The position numbers and the translations under genes were made by a program. Of a DNA stretch of 33,756 bases, positions 3,983 through 24,808 are shown in pieces. Within the stretch, counting starts at the first letter, position 1. Each line of letters opens with the position of its first letter. Source of the DNA: a virus; IMG/VR virus record IMGVR_UViG_3300029787_000180, positions 1-33,756 of that record. The stretch is one strand, 5' to 3'. The notes under the pieces are model-generated. The model was not told the origin of the DNA. It saw only the letters and a program-made list of their open reading frames with translations, and did not search any database.

Positions 3983-6796
3983 TCATTGGACTTCTGGCTC
4001 CATGAGGGTAAAGTCGTTCGTCTGCATCCACTGTCGCGCCTTCTTTCTCTTGAAACTTAATATTGAGTTCAGTTCGTCAAACTGATCCTCTCCGTTATCA
4101 AGGTTAAAGTAACTATCAACATCAGAAACTTTTTCATTCATTTGATTGAGGAGCGTTTGATTTGGATTATAACCCGTTTCGCCCGGGCGTACCCCCTGAT
4201 CGTCAACGTCATTTATAGTTTTAACAAATGTATTGTATTGCTCACCGTTGAGTAAAATTTTGTTGATCCGGCGGCCGTGCAAAGAAAAACTACCATAGCC
4301 GTTTTCTGCCAGCCTTAAAACCTCTTTGTCTAATGAACTATATCTTCCTTGTGACAATCTCACCGGGTTAAATGCTTCAGAAAATCGACCATCACCAGTT
4401 GTTACCTCATTGCCCCAGAAATCTAATCGGGGAGGTAGTTCATCATTATATAATGGATTTCTAGCTTTTGCCCGTTGCAAAGCTTCATAGAACCCTTTGG
4501 TAAATCCATTTAGTTCAGTGTATGGAGAATTGGTTAGGGGTGCTATTCCCTCCGGCAGCATCGTATTACTTGCTACTGGATTTTGAATACGCTCCATAGT
4601 TGCCTTCATTGATGTTTGACCCTCTAATAGAAACGGGTATTTGTCCTCAGTTAAATACTCATATGCGTAAGCAGTAAGCCCGAAAGGGTTGGTAACCTTG
4701 CTAAGATTACCCGCTACATTTGTGGCTACAGAACCAGCTTGTTTACCTCCGAAATCTAGCATCCTTACAAAAAAATCTTCAGTTGATTGATGCTTATTTC
4801 CCACCGTTGACGTTAGTTCTGAAACTCCCTGCAAAAAGGGCATATTGGTTGCGTATTCAGCCGCCGTTAGCGTGTATGATTTTGCCATTGCAGTTAGTAA
4901 GCTCATATCATCTTCATGCTTCATGTAGTCGCGCATATCTGCGCCCATAATTATCAAGGCTGAAAGCGGATCAAAACGCGATAAGCTATAGAAATTGTAT
5001 TCACCGTTATCTTGTTTAAAACCAATCGACATTGGTTGAACGCCAGAACCCTTTACAACCTGTTCAGTGGCGTAGTCGGAACCTGTACCAGTAACGACAA
5101 CATTATCGCCAAAGTCTCCGCTCACAAATCCCATGACACTTAGAGCAACACCGTTTCCCAATGCTAATTTTGCCAGTGCATCATCAAGTTCCGGGCCTGA
5201 TATATCTCCTTTTAAAGCGCGATAAACGGGATAAATATTTAGTGTGCGGTCAAATGCTTCATTAATTACATTTGTCGGAGTATTGTAAAAAGGCACGATT
5301 ACCTTGAATAACGGAACATCTCGAATAAACGGAGCCATTTTCCCAAAGAAACCTTGAGGCGCACCTTGAAAGGTCATCTTGCGGCTTTCGTCAGTCATCA
5401 TTTTGTCTACGGTTGTTGGGGGGTTTGTCATTACTGAGATGTATGCTTCTTCGCCACGCTCTTTTGCCAACTCTTTGACGCCGCTTACTCTCATTTCTGT
5501 TTGATATGCTATCATCTGTGCGCGAAATGCTTCACGATATTGAACCCGCCGCCGTGTTATAACTTTAAAATACTCATCTTCAGATGCTAAGAAACGACCG
5601 GACATTCTTGTTGCAATGCCGACACTATCGACAAAGCTCTGAAAATAATGACCGTCTGCTAATTGATTTTTGACATCTATAATACTGTCAGTTGATCCTA
5701 GTGCGCGTTGCTCTCTGAGGTCAATTTTGGAAACAAGGTCATTAGATCGCCCGGTAATCATAGTGTTACCCATTAATGTCAACGCATCTTTCTGCGCCAT
5801 CATTAGACCATGAGCCTCGGCTAGACCTTCTGACATATATCGCTGATCGCCCACCTCTCCACGAATACCGCCTAAAGTTCTAATGTTACCAATCGCCCCG
5901 GCTAGCCCACGCTCTAGCAAAGTTATCCCTTGGAACATGCCATTGCCAGCAATATTAACCATATGAGTGACAGGACTAGAAAGCAGAGCATTGATGTAGT
6001 TCTCCATTGCTATATCCCAAGACTTTGAAAGAAAGCCTTTTTCAGCATATTTTGCTCGGGCCGCTGGATTAGGAAGTAAAGCCAAAGAGTTTAGATGATA
6101 GTCCATCAAATCAGGGCTAAGGTCATCAACTAAACTGTCCATTTGTTGCACATATGAACTTATATCGAATCCCATTGTATACTGAATGTTCCTTACAGCC
6201 GCTCCCGTTCTCATCGCTTCACTTACTGCACCGGACACTTGCGCTGCGAGGTTTTGACTTATCCCTGCAAGGACGCCAATTTTTTTAAATGCCTCTTCTT
6301 TTTCGGCACGATTTGGGTTCATTCTTGCGACCATTGCGCCGTAACGCATTTCTTGAGCCATTTTAACTACGGCAATAATCCCGCCTACAACCTCCTCGGG
6401 TTTTGCCGGATCGCCGGGTTTGCGCTTTATCATCTTGTAGACGATATTTTCAATACCCGTTAGCTCGGCTAGAGAAACCATTTCATCCATTGATTTTGTA
6501 TTGCGCCGAAAATGCTCAAAAAGGTCTTTGTTTTTTTCTTTGATATTAGAAAGCACCGTTTCCAGATCAAGATCAAAGAAGTTTTTATCATCGAAAACCT
6601 CACCAATTCTGCCAAGGTTCAGACCTTTTTTAAAACCTCCTTCGGTTAGCTTTTCGTTGAATTTATCAATCTCCTCACTATCCAGCCCTTTCACAATCAG
6701 GCTACCGCCCGGACCTTGTGTGATTGTTTCATCAGGTATTGTACCCGCGTAGCTTCTGCGAGTTGCAGCTTCAACAAATTCTTTTAGAACGCTCAT
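3983..6796 (-). CDS. Large putative internal virion (ejection) protein, 937 aa
   Basis: A very large, mostly helical protein encoded between the tail-tube and fibre genes, where T7 carries its gp15/gp16 ejection proteins. I see no lysozyme or transglycosylase motif. A central segment (roughly residues 265-345, beginning near SSPVTHMVNIAGN) resembles stretches I recall from large phage virion and polyvalent proteins. Hydrophobic patches around residues 500-580 could insert in a membrane. The ATG overlaps the upstream stop as ATGA, indicating translational coupling. A virion role is inferred from position and size; the exact function is unknown. Confidence 0.72.
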   Translation of the reverse strand: MSVLKEFVEAATRRSYAGTIPDETITQGPGGSLIVKGLDSEEIDKFNEKLTEGGFKKGLNLGRIGEVFDDKNFFDLDLETVLSNIKEKNKDLFEHFRRNTKSMDEMVSLAELTGIENIVYKMIKRKPGDPAKPEEVVGGIIAVVKMAQEMRYGAMVARMNPNRAEKEEAFKKIGVLAGISQNLAAQVSGAVSEAMRTGAAVRNIQYTMGFDISSYVQQMDSLVDDLSPDLMDYHLNSLALLPNPAARAKYAEKGFLSKSWDIAMENYINALLSSPVTHMVNIAGNGMFQGITLLERGLAGAIGNIRTLGGIRGEVGDQRYMSEGLAEAHGLMMAQKDALTLMGNTMITGRSNDLVSKIDLREQRALGSTDSIIDVKNQLADGHYFQSFVDSVGIATRMSGRFLASEDEYFKVITRRRVQYREAFRAQMIAYQTEMRVSGVKELAKERGEEAYISVMTNPPTTVDKMMTDESRKMTFQGAPQGFFGKMAPFIRDVPLFKVIVPFYNTPTNVINEAFDRTLNIYPVYRALKGDISGPELDDALAKLALGNGVALSVMGFVSGDFGDNVVVTGTGSDYATEQVVKGSGVQPMSIGFKQDNGEYNFYSLSRFDPLSALIIMGADMRDYMKHEDDMSLLTAMAKSYTLTAAEYATNMPFLQGVSELTSTVGNKHQSTEDFFVRMLDFGGKQAGSVATNVAGNLSKVTNPFGLTAYAYEYLTEDKYPFLLEGQTSMKATMERIQNPVASNTMLPEGIAPLTNSPYTELNGFTKGFYEALQRAKARNPLYNDELPPRLDFWGNEVTTGDGRFSEAFNPVRLSQGRYSSLDKEVLRLAENGYGSFSLHGRRINKILLNGEQYNTFVKTINDVDDQGVRPGETGYNPNQTLLNQMNEKVSDVDSYFNLDNGEDQFDELNSILSFKRKKARQWMQTNDFTLMEPEVQ

Positions 6797-14952: not shown

Positions 14953-14972
14953 TACGTTTTCCTATAATTAGG

Positions 14973-15089
14973 TTAAACGCCGTTTAGGTTGTCGGGAAAT
15001 CCCCGGCCTCTGGCTACGCGGCCCGTCCGCGCCCGGTGTATTTCTACACGCCAGAGCGGCCCGAGAGGGTTGTCGCTCAATTTTGCCAT
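14973..15089 (-). CDS. Possible 38-aa ORF overlapping the capsid leader RNA structure
   Basis: An open frame of 38 codons starts with ATG GCA AAA TTG and ends 20 bases before the capsid ATG. It would encode an Arg-rich peptide (WRVEIHRARTGRVARGRGF in its middle). There is no convincing Shine-Dalgarno, and its GC content is far above the neighbouring genes because of the stem sequences. It could be a leader peptide, but I favour the RNA structure as the constrained feature. Confidence 0.3.
   Translation of the reverse strand: MAKLSDNPLGPLWRVEIHRARTGRVARGRGFPDNLNGV
14993..15056 (-). ncRNA. Structured leader of the capsid mRNA: three-way junction plus hairpin
   Basis: Read on the minus strand, CTCTGGC (15056-15050) pairs with GCCAGAG (15014-15008). 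Inside are GTGTA-GAAA-TACAC (15049-15036), a perfect 5-bp hairpin with a GNRA tetraloop, then CGGG, then CGCGG-ACGGG-CCGCG (15031-15017), a second perfect 5-bp hairpin, then TA. This makes 17 perfect pairs in 49 bases arranged as a three-way junction. A further 4-bp hairpin (CGGG-GATTT-CCCG, 15005-14993) follows. The GNRA loop exists only in the minus-strand RNA, the sense of the capsid transcript. An 8-bp direct repeat GGTTGTCG (14987-14994 and 15068-15075) flanks the region. No known RNA family was recognised. Confidence 0.62.
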
Positions 15090-21032: not shown

Positions 21033-21258
21033 CGGCTGTATCCCCCCGCTCAGAAGAACCCAACTGACCATTCACACTGCCACGCCGAGAGTCATCTTGC
21101 TCAAATAACCGTAGCCATACCTCCCCATCCTTATTCGGCAAAGGTAAACTCTCCAACTTAATACTAATCTTACCGTCCTTCTCAAAAGCAACCCCGTGCT
21201 TCAACCATACTGGCTTGTCACGACCGTCAACCTCCTTCGCTTGAACTACATTCATCAT
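21016..21258 (-). CDS. Unknown 80-aa protein with an SSB-like acidic C-terminal tip
   Basis: A short beta-rich protein (KPVWLKHGVAFEKDGKISI, then LPLPNKDGEVWLRLFE) with a disordered Ser/Gly/Asp tail that ends in DEIPF. Bacterial single-strand binding proteins end in DDDIPF, the peptide that recruits RecO, RecG, exonuclease I, PriA and others. The body does not look like a full OB-fold SSB. It has an AGGAG Shine-Dalgarno, and its start overlaps the GcrA-like stop. A role in replication or repair is plausible but unproven. Confidence 0.68.
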   Translation of the reverse strand: MMNVVQAKEVDGRDKPVWLKHGVAFEKDGKISIKLESLPLPNKDGEVWLRLFEQDDSRRGSVNGQLGSSERGDTADEIPF

Positions 21259-21434
21259 TTTCTTTCTCCTCTCACTTGTTGATCATCTATCACCCCACTT
21301 ACCCGCAAACGGTAAACCTTGCCCAAAACAGAATTGCGACTAATCCCACCAAAACGCCGCGCAATCTTACCCGCCGATTCACCAGCTAACCACAACTTCA
21401 CTAAAAGACGCACCTTCCGATCAGTCCATTTCAT
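21255..21434 (-). CDS. GcrA-like regulator, N-terminal DNA-binding domain only, 59 aa
   Basis: The sequence begins KWTDRKVRLLVKLWLAGES and continues AGKIARRFGGISRNSVLG, KVYRLRVSG. This is the GcrA signature: W-T-x-x-R, an LKxLW-type helix, then the SxxIAxxLGGxTRNAVIGKVHRL pattern. GcrA is a cell-cycle transcription factor of Alphaproteobacteria that binds the sigma-70 holoenzyme and promoters containing GANTC. Here only the conserved N-terminal DNA-binding domain (about 48 residues) plus a short basic tail is present, without the long C-terminal sigma-interacting part. It has GGAG eight bases before the ATG and overlaps the next gene's start. Confidence 0.85.
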   Translation of the reverse strand: MKWTDRKVRLLVKLWLAGESAGKIARRFGGISRNSVLGKVYRLRVSGVIDDQQVRGERK

Positions 21435-21540
21435 ACCGTTTCTCCAAAAAAAATTTGTGTTGTACCCATACGCACTCGGCAGACCCCGGGGGGCAAGGGG
21501 TGGGGTTCGCGCTTTTTTTCTTGTACACGTACAAGTCCAT
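21421..21540 (-). CDS. Possible 39-aa ORF between initiator and GcrA-like gene
   Basis: An open frame begins ATG GAC TTG TAC GTG, whose first codons are the inverted repeat at 21520-21535. It encodes a Lys/Cys/Pro-containing peptide (KKKSANPTPCPPGSAEC) and overlaps the start of the GcrA-like gene by 14 bases. No Shine-Dalgarno is visible. It may be a leader peptide or chance. Confidence 0.28.
   Translation of the reverse strand: MDLYVYKKKSANPTPCPPGSAECVWVQHKFFLEKRYEMD
21520..21535. promoter_or_regulatory. Inverted repeat CTTGTAC-AC-GTACAAG, candidate operator
   Basis: Perfect 7-bp arms CTTGTAC / GTACAAG with a 2-base centre lie in the 130-base gap between the initiator gene and the GcrA-like gene. 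Two further TTGTAC-like half sites lie on either side (21463-21468 and 21553-21559). The spacing and symmetry suit a dimeric regulator binding upstream of the GcrA/packaging genes. Confidence 0.45.
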
Positions 21541-21564: not shown

Positions 21565-22515
21565 TCATCTAAAACGCATCCTGTTAGTTGTTCTCTTCAA
21601 AATGGATAGGGGGTCTTCTTTCTTCCCTTCCTTTATTGCTATGAAGTATTGCAATGACACGGGTGCTTGCTTGCCCTTATCGCGCATCCACTTGATCAGG
21701 CTACGGCTGCGCTTGTCGAATGTATCAGGCGTGAACCCGAGGTCGATCAGCTTGGACGCCAGCTCCATCTGCCGATCATCGTACACCCAGCCTCGGCCGT
21801 ATGTTTCCGCGACCGCACTTGAGTATCCATTGCAAATCCTTCTACACTCTTCTTCTTTGCTCTCTTCTATACTTCTATTGTTAAGGTTGTTAAATACAAG
21901 GTGGGGCTTGTGAGTAGTCATACAAGGTGCAGCTTGTATAAGGTCACCTTCTGTTTCATTGCTTTCACAAGGTGCAGCTTGTGGGGCCTGTGGATAACTC
22001 TGCTTTTTGTGGATAACTTTTGGTGCTTTTGTGAGTTGTCCTTTTGAGCCTCTTGCTGCTAGTTCCATGACTTTATCGGCTTCTTTGGCTTCTTCTTCGG
22101 GTGTTTTTGCTTGGGCGGGCTGGGGCATTTTCTCTACATCTTTGATACTCATGGTTGGGTCGTAGACTATTCTCCAGAGTGCGCCTTTTTTCCCGAATGG
22201 TCTGTTTTGATTTTGCTTTCTGAGCTTTTCTATGTAGCCCCATTCGATGAGTTTATTCATGTGTTGTGATGCTGCTTGTTGTGAGCAGCCTAGTATTTCT
22301 GCTATTGTGTATTGGTTTGTCCAGAAGGTAGCGGTCCAAGCTTTAGCGAAGGAGCAACATACTGCTAATGCTCTGAAGGTTTTGGGGTACTGATTGAAGC
22401 GGTTATCTACTACGGCCCTGCCGGGTACTTGTGCGTAGGGACCGGGGGATTGTTTGCTTCCGTGGCCTTCTGGCGCGTCCCTGATGGGGTCTGGAGTGTA
22501 GATAGTTTTATCCAT
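21565..22515 (-). CDS. Winged-helix replication initiator (probable), 316 aa
   Basis: Residues about 38-125 form a winged helix: a YPKTFRALAVCCSFAK helix, then FWTNQYTIAEILGCSQQAASQHMNKLIEWGYIEKL and a basic wing before WRIVYD. A polar linker (about 135-235) follows, containing repeated QAAPC-type peptides encoded by the iterons at 21896-21982 and ending before a C-terminal helical domain (about 240-316). A DNA-binding domain, a linker holding the iterons and a separate C-terminal domain is the layout of lambda O. The start is the ATG at 22515; a longer frame is out of context. Function is inferred from this layout and from the lack of any other initiator. Confidence 0.72.
   Translation of the reverse strand: MDKTIYTPDPIRDAPEGHGSKQSPGPYAQVPGRAVVDNRFNQYPKTFRALAVCCSFAKAWTATFWTNQYTIAEILGCSQQAASQHMNKLIEWGYIEKLRKQNQNRPFGKKGALWRIVYDPTMSIKDVEKMPQPAQAKTPEEEAKEADKVMELAARGSKGQLTKAPKVIHKKQSYPQAPQAAPCESNETEGDLIQAAPCMTTHKPHLVFNNLNNRSIEESKEEECRRICNGYSSAVAETYGRGWVYDDRQMELASKLIDLGFTPDTFDKRSRSLIKWMRDKGKQAPVSLQYFIAIKEGKKEDPLSILKRTTNRMRFR
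21896..21982. repeat. Three palindromic 16-bp iterons
   Basis: Two identical copies of ACAAGGTGCAGCTTGT (21922-21937 and 21967-21982) and one variant ACAAGGTGGGGCTTGT (21896-21911) are present. Each is an inverted repeat ACAAG-N6-CTTGT. Spacing start to start is 26 and 45 bases. They lie inside the initiator gene, in the linker-coding part, and are probable binding sites for the initiator dimer. Confidence 0.85.
21989..22016 (-). promoter_or_regulatory. Two perfect DnaA boxes
   Basis: The + strand reads TGTGGATAA at 21989-21997 and again at 22008-22016, so the minus strand carries two exact TTATCCACA consensus boxes in the same orientation, 19 bases apart. Only one near match (TGTGGATAG at 28001) was noticed elsewhere. 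Confidence 0.85.
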
Positions 22516-22517
22516 TA

Positions 22518-22673
22518 CTAATCTTCTTGCAGCTCTGCTTCTGTGATTAATCCGCACCCGTTACAGAGTTCACAAGTCTCATCGTATGTGGTGAGGTATT
22601 GCCGCCCGAAAGAGGGTACATCATAGACGTGTCTTCCTTGACCGTTGCAGTCTGGGCATGTGACGAGCTTCAT
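22518..22673 (-). CDS. Small DnaJ-type zinc-finger protein, 51 aa
   Basis: It contains two CxxCxGxG-type half sites: CPDCNGQG at residues 6-13 and CELCNGCG at about 36-43. These are separated by a short Tyr-containing loop, as in the cysteine-rich domain of DnaJ. It probably binds one zinc ion. Similar stand-alone proteins are common in phages with unknown roles. Its ATG overlaps the stop of the 31-aa membrane peptide gene (ATGA), and its stop lies 2 bases before the initiator ATG region. Confidence 0.8.
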   Translation of the reverse strand: MKLVTCPDCNGQGRHVYDVPSFGRQYLTTYDETCELCNGCGLITEAELQED

Positions 22674-23711: not shown

Positions 23712-24163
23712 GTCTTGTTTCCCAGCAATAGAAAGTCCTCCAAGGGGATCATTGCCACGGGTTCTATGTCGGACGGGTCTTGACGGTCCTTGCGGCCACC
23801 GATTTGCACTTTGGGTTTACAGTTGTGCAGTGCGGTGAAGGCTATTTTATCAGCCCACTTTACGAGCAGAAAAACGGGGAGGTGTAAGGCTTGATATAGC
23901 TGCTTTGCCTTCCAGACTTTAGTGAAGCTTATGAGATAGGAGGGATACTTGTTCATCTCGGTCTTGCGGGTTTTCATTTCTATGAAGGCCATGACCTCAT
24001 TGCTCCTGATCGCGGCGTAATCAAATGCTGATTTGTCCTTCATTTTGCTCATCTGACACTTCCATTTTTGGGTGACGATCAGGGCTAGCTCGGCTTCGTT
24101 GTCCCGGTCCATCTGCTTTTCGTACACGGGACGATACGTATTGAAGTTGTACATTCTAGACAT
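23708..24163 (-). CDS. PD-(D/E)XK-type nuclease, 151 aa
   Basis: A compact nuclease with an N-terminal helix holding Glu (about residue 25), then KSAFDYAAIR with Asp48 and, after a strand, FIEMKTRK with the E-x-K pair at 62-64. This is the D-(x13)-ExK spacing of the PD-(D/E)XK core. It ends with PVFLLVKWADKIAF strands. The likely job is a structure-specific or resolvase-like nuclease in replication or recombination. The ATG at 24163 overlaps the upstream stop by 8 bases; a longer GTG form is possible. A Holliday junction resolvase is one alternative. Confidence 0.7.
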   Translation of the reverse strand: MSRMYNFNTYRPVYEKQMDRDNEAELALIVTQKWKCQMSKMKDKSAFDYAAIRSNEVMAFIEMKTRKTEMNKYPSYLISFTKVWKAKQLYQALHLPVFLLVKWADKIAFTALHNCKPKVQIGGRKDRQDPSDIEPVAMIPLEDFLLLGNKT

Positions 24164-24632
24164 GACGAAACTCTGCTTGCAGTTCGTCACGTATTCTATT
24201 GATATAATTACGTAGCCCGAGGTCTTTACTCATTCGCTCTTCAATACGCCTGATTGAGTTAAGCAGGGTAGTGTGATCGCGGTTTACTGCTTTTGCTATG
24301 ACGGGAAAGCTTAGAGATGTTAGCTCTCGGCAAAGATAATGTGCGAGTTGACGCCATACTACGATATGGCTATGTCGTTCACTGCCGCGAAGTCTCTTGA
24401 CGCTTATCTGACTTCGCTCTGAGATGGCAGTGAGTATTTCGCGGCACGATATCCGTTGGCTGATATCTCTAATATCAATGTCCCCGGAAAAAGAGCCTCG
24501 ACCAACTTTTTCTTCAGCCGATAGATATCCGTTTTGAAACCCTTCACGTCCTCTACCACTTGGCAACCGCTCTGACCATCCGGCCCAGTCTTCTTCTTGT
24601 CGAAGTAACTGAAATCTGCTTTGTACTTGCAT
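24156..24632 (-). CDS. DnaA domain IV-like DNA-binding protein, 158 aa
   Basis: Residues about 61-135 match the DnaA-box-binding domain IV: SCREILTAISERSQI, VKRLRGSERHSHIVVWRQLAHYL, CRELTSLSFPVIAKAVN and the signature RDHTTLLNSIRRIEERM. No AAA+ ATPase domain is present. The first 60 residues come from DNA shared with the DUF1064-type gene in another frame and look non-native. ATG 24632 has GAGG nine bases upstream and is the only ATG start, so a 229-base overlap is implied unless a rare start (for example ATT near 24474) is used. It could bind the DnaA boxes at 21989-22016 or compete with host DnaA. Confidence 0.82.
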   Translation of the reverse strand: MQVQSRFQLLRQEEDWAGWSERLPSGRGREGFQNGYLSAEEKVGRGSFSGDIDIRDISQRISCREILTAISERSQISVKRLRGSERHSHIVVWRQLAHYLCRELTSLSFPVIAKAVNRDHTTLLNSIRRIEERMSKDLGLRNYINRIRDELQAEFRHV

Positions 24633-24808
24633 ATTTTTTTTCCTCTTATTTCACATTTGAACTCCGGCTGGAGTGTGAGGTTTGTTATTTCTTTTGCAGC
24701 GACCCGGGGCTTTAGTACGTGGTAATAGTGCTTCGCTTCGGCAACGCTATCGAAGGTTATTCCATCAACCGTTACCTTCTTGTTTTTGAACTTTGAAAAA
24801 CTAGGCAA
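24404..24808 (-). CDS. DUF1064-type nuclease, 134 aa
   Basis: The family pattern is clear: KFKNKKVTVDGITFDSVAEA (N-terminus), ITNLTLQPEFKCEI, YKADFSYFD and VVEDVKGFKTDIYRLKKKL. DUF1064 proteins are phage-encoded and thought to be endonucleases with a PD-(D/E)XK/Vsr-like fold; Glu in FDSVAEA, Asp in KADF and the VVEDVKG segment would form the site. The start is TTG at 24808, overlapping the ribbon-helix-helix stop; no ATG is nearby. It overlaps the DnaA-like frame over its last 229 bases. Confidence 0.85.
   Translation of the reverse strand: MPSFSKFKNKKVTVDGITFDSVAEAKHYYHVLKPRVAAKEITNLTLQPEFKCEIRGKKICKYKADFSYFDKKKTGPDGQSGCQVVEDVKGFKTDIYRLKKKLVEALFPGTLILEISANGYRAAKYSLPSQSEVR

Follow-up and report, generated by a model that had tools for sequence, protein, structure and literature searches.

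Segment 21836-22016 of the window, that is, of the 33,756-base virus record IMGVR_UViG_3300029787_000180 (no end repeats listed), is probably the theta-type replication origin of this phage, nested in the gene of its initiator (Table 1). It would provide a precise candidate origin for small podophages of an uncultured group without replication machinery of its own, one stretch of DNA being both protein-coding and the predicted landing pad for the copying machinery. An origin inside the initiator gene, combining initiator sites with DnaA boxes, had been proposed in a preliminary description of the window and is strongly supported by the relatives of the phage, with regard to a codon-based null model, reading frames, spacing and the AT-rich tract.

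Table 1. Coordinates of the origin sites and associated genes in the window
Feature	Position	Strand	Remarks
Initiator gene (winged-helix N-domain, disordered linker, helical C-domain)	21565..22515	-	phrog_270 replication initiation protein, E 8e-9
DnaA box TTATCCACA, distal to dyads	22008..22016	-	
DnaA box TTATCCACA, proximal to dyads	21989..21997	-	orientation opposite to nearly all relatives
Dyad (iteron) 1 in coding direction	21967..21982	-	read as QAAPC
Dyad (iteron) 2	21922..21937	-	read as QAAPC
Dyad (iteron) 3	21896..21911	-	read as KPHLV, frame differs from dyads 1 and 2
AT-rich tract, candidate unwinding element	21836..21895	.	adjoins dyad 3
GcrA N-terminal domain protein, next gene after initiator	21255..21434	-	PF07750, E 1.7e-13
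DnaA domain IV protein without AAA+ domain	24156..24632	-	PF08299, E 9e-19; aligned to PDB DnaA 1j1v, 3pvp

The three 16-bp palindromes and two exact TTATCCACA boxes described earlier were recovered at exactly the positions claimed. The arms ACAAG/CTTGT are exact in all three repeats and fit ACAAGN6CTTGT, but the 6-bp centre (GTGGGG, GTGCAG and GTGCAG on the plus strand) is asymmetric, and we refer to the repeats as dyads. They form the only three-copy direct-repeat family with a spacing of ≤150 bp in the whole window, and the repeat search of the window yielded no second multi-copy cluster as another origin candidate. The two TTATCCACA copies are the only exact DnaA boxes in the window; for ACAAGGTGCAGCTTGT, with up to three mismatches, 5 matches were counted on both strands vs 0.30 in shuffles. 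Judged by sequence, a single DnaA box in the window is unremarkable when taken alone, while its conservation throughout the family is remarkable. The AT-rich tract adjoining the sites was also confirmed, with 80/65/60% AT per 20-bp step in the 60 bp past the last dyad vs 35-40% further on. A near-perfect 16-bp dyad, CTTGTACACGTACAAG, lies just past the initiator gene at 21520-21535, and its half-sites have the opposite orientation to those of the iterons; no dyad of this type was found at the equivalent place in relatives.

Searches of IMG/VR returned >80 distinct initiator genes, many of them on fragments, which form 21 clusters at 70% amino acid identity; the nearest relative of the window initiator is 52% identical. 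No homologues were found among the phage records or the GTDB genome contigs searched. Nearly all relatives carry 2-4 dyads, some with one letter of the right arm changed, and most carry an exact DnaA box. For comparison with a synonymous-codon null, the protein was held fixed and codons were redrawn from the gene's own usage. An exact box was seen in 18 of the 21 clusters (0.95 expected) and exact dyads numbered 49 (3.1 expected), whereby counts and spacings across relatives are not independent and the cluster-level null handles kinship only in part. Exact boxes outside the initiator gene showed no enrichment (4 in 813 kb, with 6.2 expected). Among the relatives, translation passes through the dyads in every one of the three frames (KPQLV, QAPAC, TSPSL). 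On a tree for which most of the linker was cut out of the sequences, dyad 1 changes frame at least 7 times. The box is present in both orientations. Since the synonymous-codon null is far exceeded and both frame and orientation change, the DNA of the origin region itself, and not just the encoded protein, appears to be under selection, which would make it a clear case of DNA sites that persist within coding sequence even as frame and orientation change. Three of the 21 clusters are without an exact box, and DnaA is therefore not needed in all. One clade (L030, L031, L117-L120) has four dyads and no exact box, and its initiator is longer and contains an inserted segment; the 34-kb record of L030 gave no PF08299 match.

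In the coding direction, the order in the relatives is box, dyads and AT-rich tract. The distance from box to first dyad is 19-21 bp in 18 of 23 distinct spacings and 31 or 41-42 bp in the rest, so that the spacings differ by steps of about one helical turn. Dyad-to-dyad spacings are dominated by 24, 33-34 and 43-45 bp; as 16, 41 and 57 bp were found too, helical phasing of the dyads was dropped as a general rule and is only partial. The window departs from the family pattern, with inverted boxes 15 and 34 bp from dyad 1 and its last two dyads 26 bp apart vs 24; together with L129 it stands apart, each having two boxes, inverted and at other distances. After the last dyad, the mean AT content in 20 cluster representatives is 0.73/0.73/0.70 per 20-bp step (~72% over 60 bp), with a gene mean of 0.54. 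GC skew on the initiator strand rises from a mean of ~0 to +0.31 within 1 kb of the last dyad (~83 loci). In the window, for which a skew inflection had been predicted at about 21.9 kb, the plus-strand skew shifts from -0.42 to +0.07 at 21.5 kb, with no change in gene direction, the minus strand carrying the main genes throughout 4-25 kb. A two-replichore reading of the window skew was rejected, however, as confounded by gene direction: the skew drops again past 29.5 kb and elsewhere tracks gene direction, and we therefore regard it as support but not as proof.

The initiator gene most likely starts at the ATG at 22513-22515 and not at the GTG at 22557, because the ATG is conserved in the alignment. 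Replication-initiator profiles of PHROG match every relative tested; phrog_270 is matched by all 16 members of alignment A2, and O-like profiles by 10 of the 16 at 1e-3 or better. In Pfam, the initiator and its relatives match only general winged-helix families. The AlphaFold model (m18fc3d270509; mean pLDDT 60, i.e. low confidence overall) folds residues 31-115 into a winged helix and the C-terminal domain into helices, with residues 155-215 between the two at pLDDT <50. The location of the sites in the linker-coding part, as described earlier, thus holds, the origin DNA encoding this disordered stretch. The C-domain modelled alone reached a mean pLDDT of 80, and comparison of this model with the PDB gave no fold match. 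A comparison with solved structures placed the protein closest to MarR-type proteins and to initiators of RepA_N plasmids, in each case with a weak E-value; the RepA_N folds 5kbj, 4pql and 4pt7 (E 0.05-0.07) score no better than many MarR proteins, with a query model of mean pLDDT 60.

Given what was observed directly, namely sites whose DNA is under selection, ordered as box, dyads and AT-rich tract, and the domain layout of the protein, initiation could proceed in four steps. Initiator dimers would bind the three ACAAGN6CTTGT dyads via the winged helix, as suggested by the dyad symmetry and the MarR-like fold. DnaA, most likely that of the host, would occupy the boxes beside the dyads, as suggested by their exact consensus. 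By analogy with ori-lambda, the AT-rich tract at dyad 3 would then open, and host helicase or primase would be recruited by the helical C-terminal domain, since the phage has neither. The lack of a phage polymerase, helicase and primase, already remarked upon in the preliminary description, was borne out by a scan of ~30 window proteins; that initiator and DnaA both load the host replisome is what we infer.

The lambda origin and O protein (PMC5043065, PMC3985674) share with this system the location in the initiator gene, the dyad iterons and an AT-rich region (~40 bp in lambda) beside them (PMC5043065); the lambda iterons are bound by O dimers, and DnaA-box-like sites have been footprinted near pO (PMC5043065, PMC3985674). 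Unlike the 19-bp iterons of lambda, the sites here are 16-bp ACAAGN6CTTGT dyads, and DnaA boxes of exact consensus accompany them at a preferred distance; no P- or DnaC-type helicase loader was found among the window proteins scanned, which cover all but a few small ORFs, and the Pfam lambda O family matched none of the 16 initiator members. Of the designation as lambda-type, the layout therefore stands, but the protein does not follow it, having no Pfam lambda O match and its nearest folds, at weak E-values, in MarR-type and RepA_N proteins. In pSK41 Rep, a RepA_N protein, the linker is likewise encoded by ori DNA (PMC5703833), and the winged-helix N-domain (predicted here), the separate C-domain and the central position of the origin in the gene are also alike (PMC5703833; PDB 5kbj, 4pql, 4pt7). 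Differences are the DnaA boxes, of which none were detected in the staphylococcal plasmids, the C-domain without PDB fold match, and the lack of a PF06970 (RepA_N) match in the window protein and the 16 members. Overall, the layout appears to resemble that of pSK41 Rep more closely than the lambda origin. In the iteron plasmids P1, pSC101, RK2 and F, the iterons are not known to lie inside the initiator gene. DnaA boxes beside helically phased repeats are typical of such plasmids (PMC5043065), which resemble the present origin in their DnaA boxes, AT-rich region and initiator repeats, with the dyad-to-dyad phasing here only partial; their repeats, in contrast, are mostly direct and monomer-bound, and Rep_3 (PF01051) matched neither the window protein nor the 16 members. 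The OM43 phage MEP301 (MW452941) has a terminase 66% identical to that of the window, lacks DNA and RNA polymerase as well (PMC8024684), and its gp55 matches O-like initiators, but its genome contains neither TTATCCACA nor ACAAGN6CTTGT and shows no avoidance of GANTC. MEP301 and Hodr were considered as carriers of the same origin and discarded, as neither has such an array. By profile searches, the initiator thus fits none of the Pfam families lambda O, RepA_N and Rep_3.

As to which protein reads the boxes, the exact consensus suggests DnaA, but the preliminary description had missed the phage protein with a DnaA domain IV, a second candidate reader; it had likewise overlooked the GcrA gene and the further dyad that relatives carry in the capsid promoter. 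This protein scores 67.7 bits against PF08299 (gathering score 31.5) and, aligned to DnaA structures, keeps the DNA-contact motif RDHTT, with an arginine at what we take to be E. coli R399. Its gene overlaps, in another frame, a DUF1064 nuclease gene (24404-24808, minus strand), inside which its start ATG is located. This internal ATG is conserved; most relatives have it 105-108 bp ahead of the domain, with a Shine-Dalgarno-like purine stretch preceding it. The gene looks like a nested gene translated from it, which fits better than a programmed frameshift, for which no conserved slippery site was seen. Why a DnaA DNA-binding domain should be carried without its motor is a question raised by this arrangement. 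At the same origin, the protein could be the reader of the boxes, as an architectural partner or competitor of host DnaA, a reading we consider possible but unlikely. It is favoured by the conserved contact residues, by the presence of the gene in 52 of the 64 genomes with enough flank for an association analysis, by the window's two boxes being the only exact sites in the genome, and by the report that the AAA+ domain of DnaA is dispensable at iteron plasmids (PMC5043065). In the 64 genomes, however, box and gene are not associated (45 with both, 11 with the box only, 7 with the gene only and no exact box, 1 with neither; Fisher p = 1), and long records such as L100, L145 and L149 have the box with no PF08299 match. 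An obligatory role as box reader, suggested by the first relatives, was thus abandoned with the larger set, and because of this lack of association, host DnaA seems the likelier and simpler reader. A match in an Acinetobacter "phage" (H9) was set aside, being a full-length DnaA among chromosomal genes. In the gut phage contig L161 (MT836079), one exact and three relaxed DnaA-box-like sites fall within 260 bp (4431-4692), just past the domain IV gene; such a cluster near the gene is absent in L158 and L159.

Of the 22 loci long enough, 21 have one further exact dyad ~7-8.5 kb downstream, the exception being the window. It lies in the capsid promoter region, in L004 between the scaffold and capsid genes (L004:9567-9582), and always reads TTTACAAG; a TTT before it gives a -35-like hexamer, TTTACA, followed in most loci by a -10-like hexamer. 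Directly past this dyad, the RNA of the capsid leader has a conserved fold, in which changes on both sides support 14 of the 16 predicted pairs (alignment A6), and it matches no Rfam family; the leader is present in the window too (14953-15085, minus strand). As the dyad also occurs in a promoter, binding by the initiator alone is no proof of an origin. The promoter dyad and the MarR-like winged helix would suit an operator array of a MarR-like regulator in place of an origin; this is quite improbable, since the dyads lie in the middle of the gene, together with an AT-rich tract and a conserved DnaA box at a preferred spacing, and the protein matches replication initiators, and a double role as regulator and origin protein is compatible with the origin reading. 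Tentatively, and with rather low probability, the lineage may have its own two-part initiator, consisting of the O/RepA_N-like protein on the nested dyads and the motorless domain IV protein, itself from a nested gene, on the adjacent boxes, the former also controlling the capsid promoter via the further dyad in most relatives. Genome copying and capsid synthesis would then be under one shared switch. It is very improbable that the segment, close to the small terminase gene, serves packaging (pac) or partition: terminase genes do lie within ~0.5-2.5 kb downstream, but DnaA boxes and an AT-rich tract are unexpected at such sites, and the further dyad of the relatives is ~7.5 kb off, at a promoter. 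That the repeats merely reflect a repeated protein motif with no DNA function can practically be dismissed, for although many copies encode KPQLV and PVD[KN]S (KPQLV, PVDKS), identical DNA persists where frame or orientation differs, and conservation goes far beyond the synonymous-codon null.

With regard to the host, the window has far fewer GANTC sites than expected (20 seen vs 120), and this strong avoidance together with the gene for a GcrA domain suggests an alphaproteobacterial host. In 12 of 13 relatives tested, the GANTC ratio is 0-0.32; L129, like MEP301, shows no avoidance.
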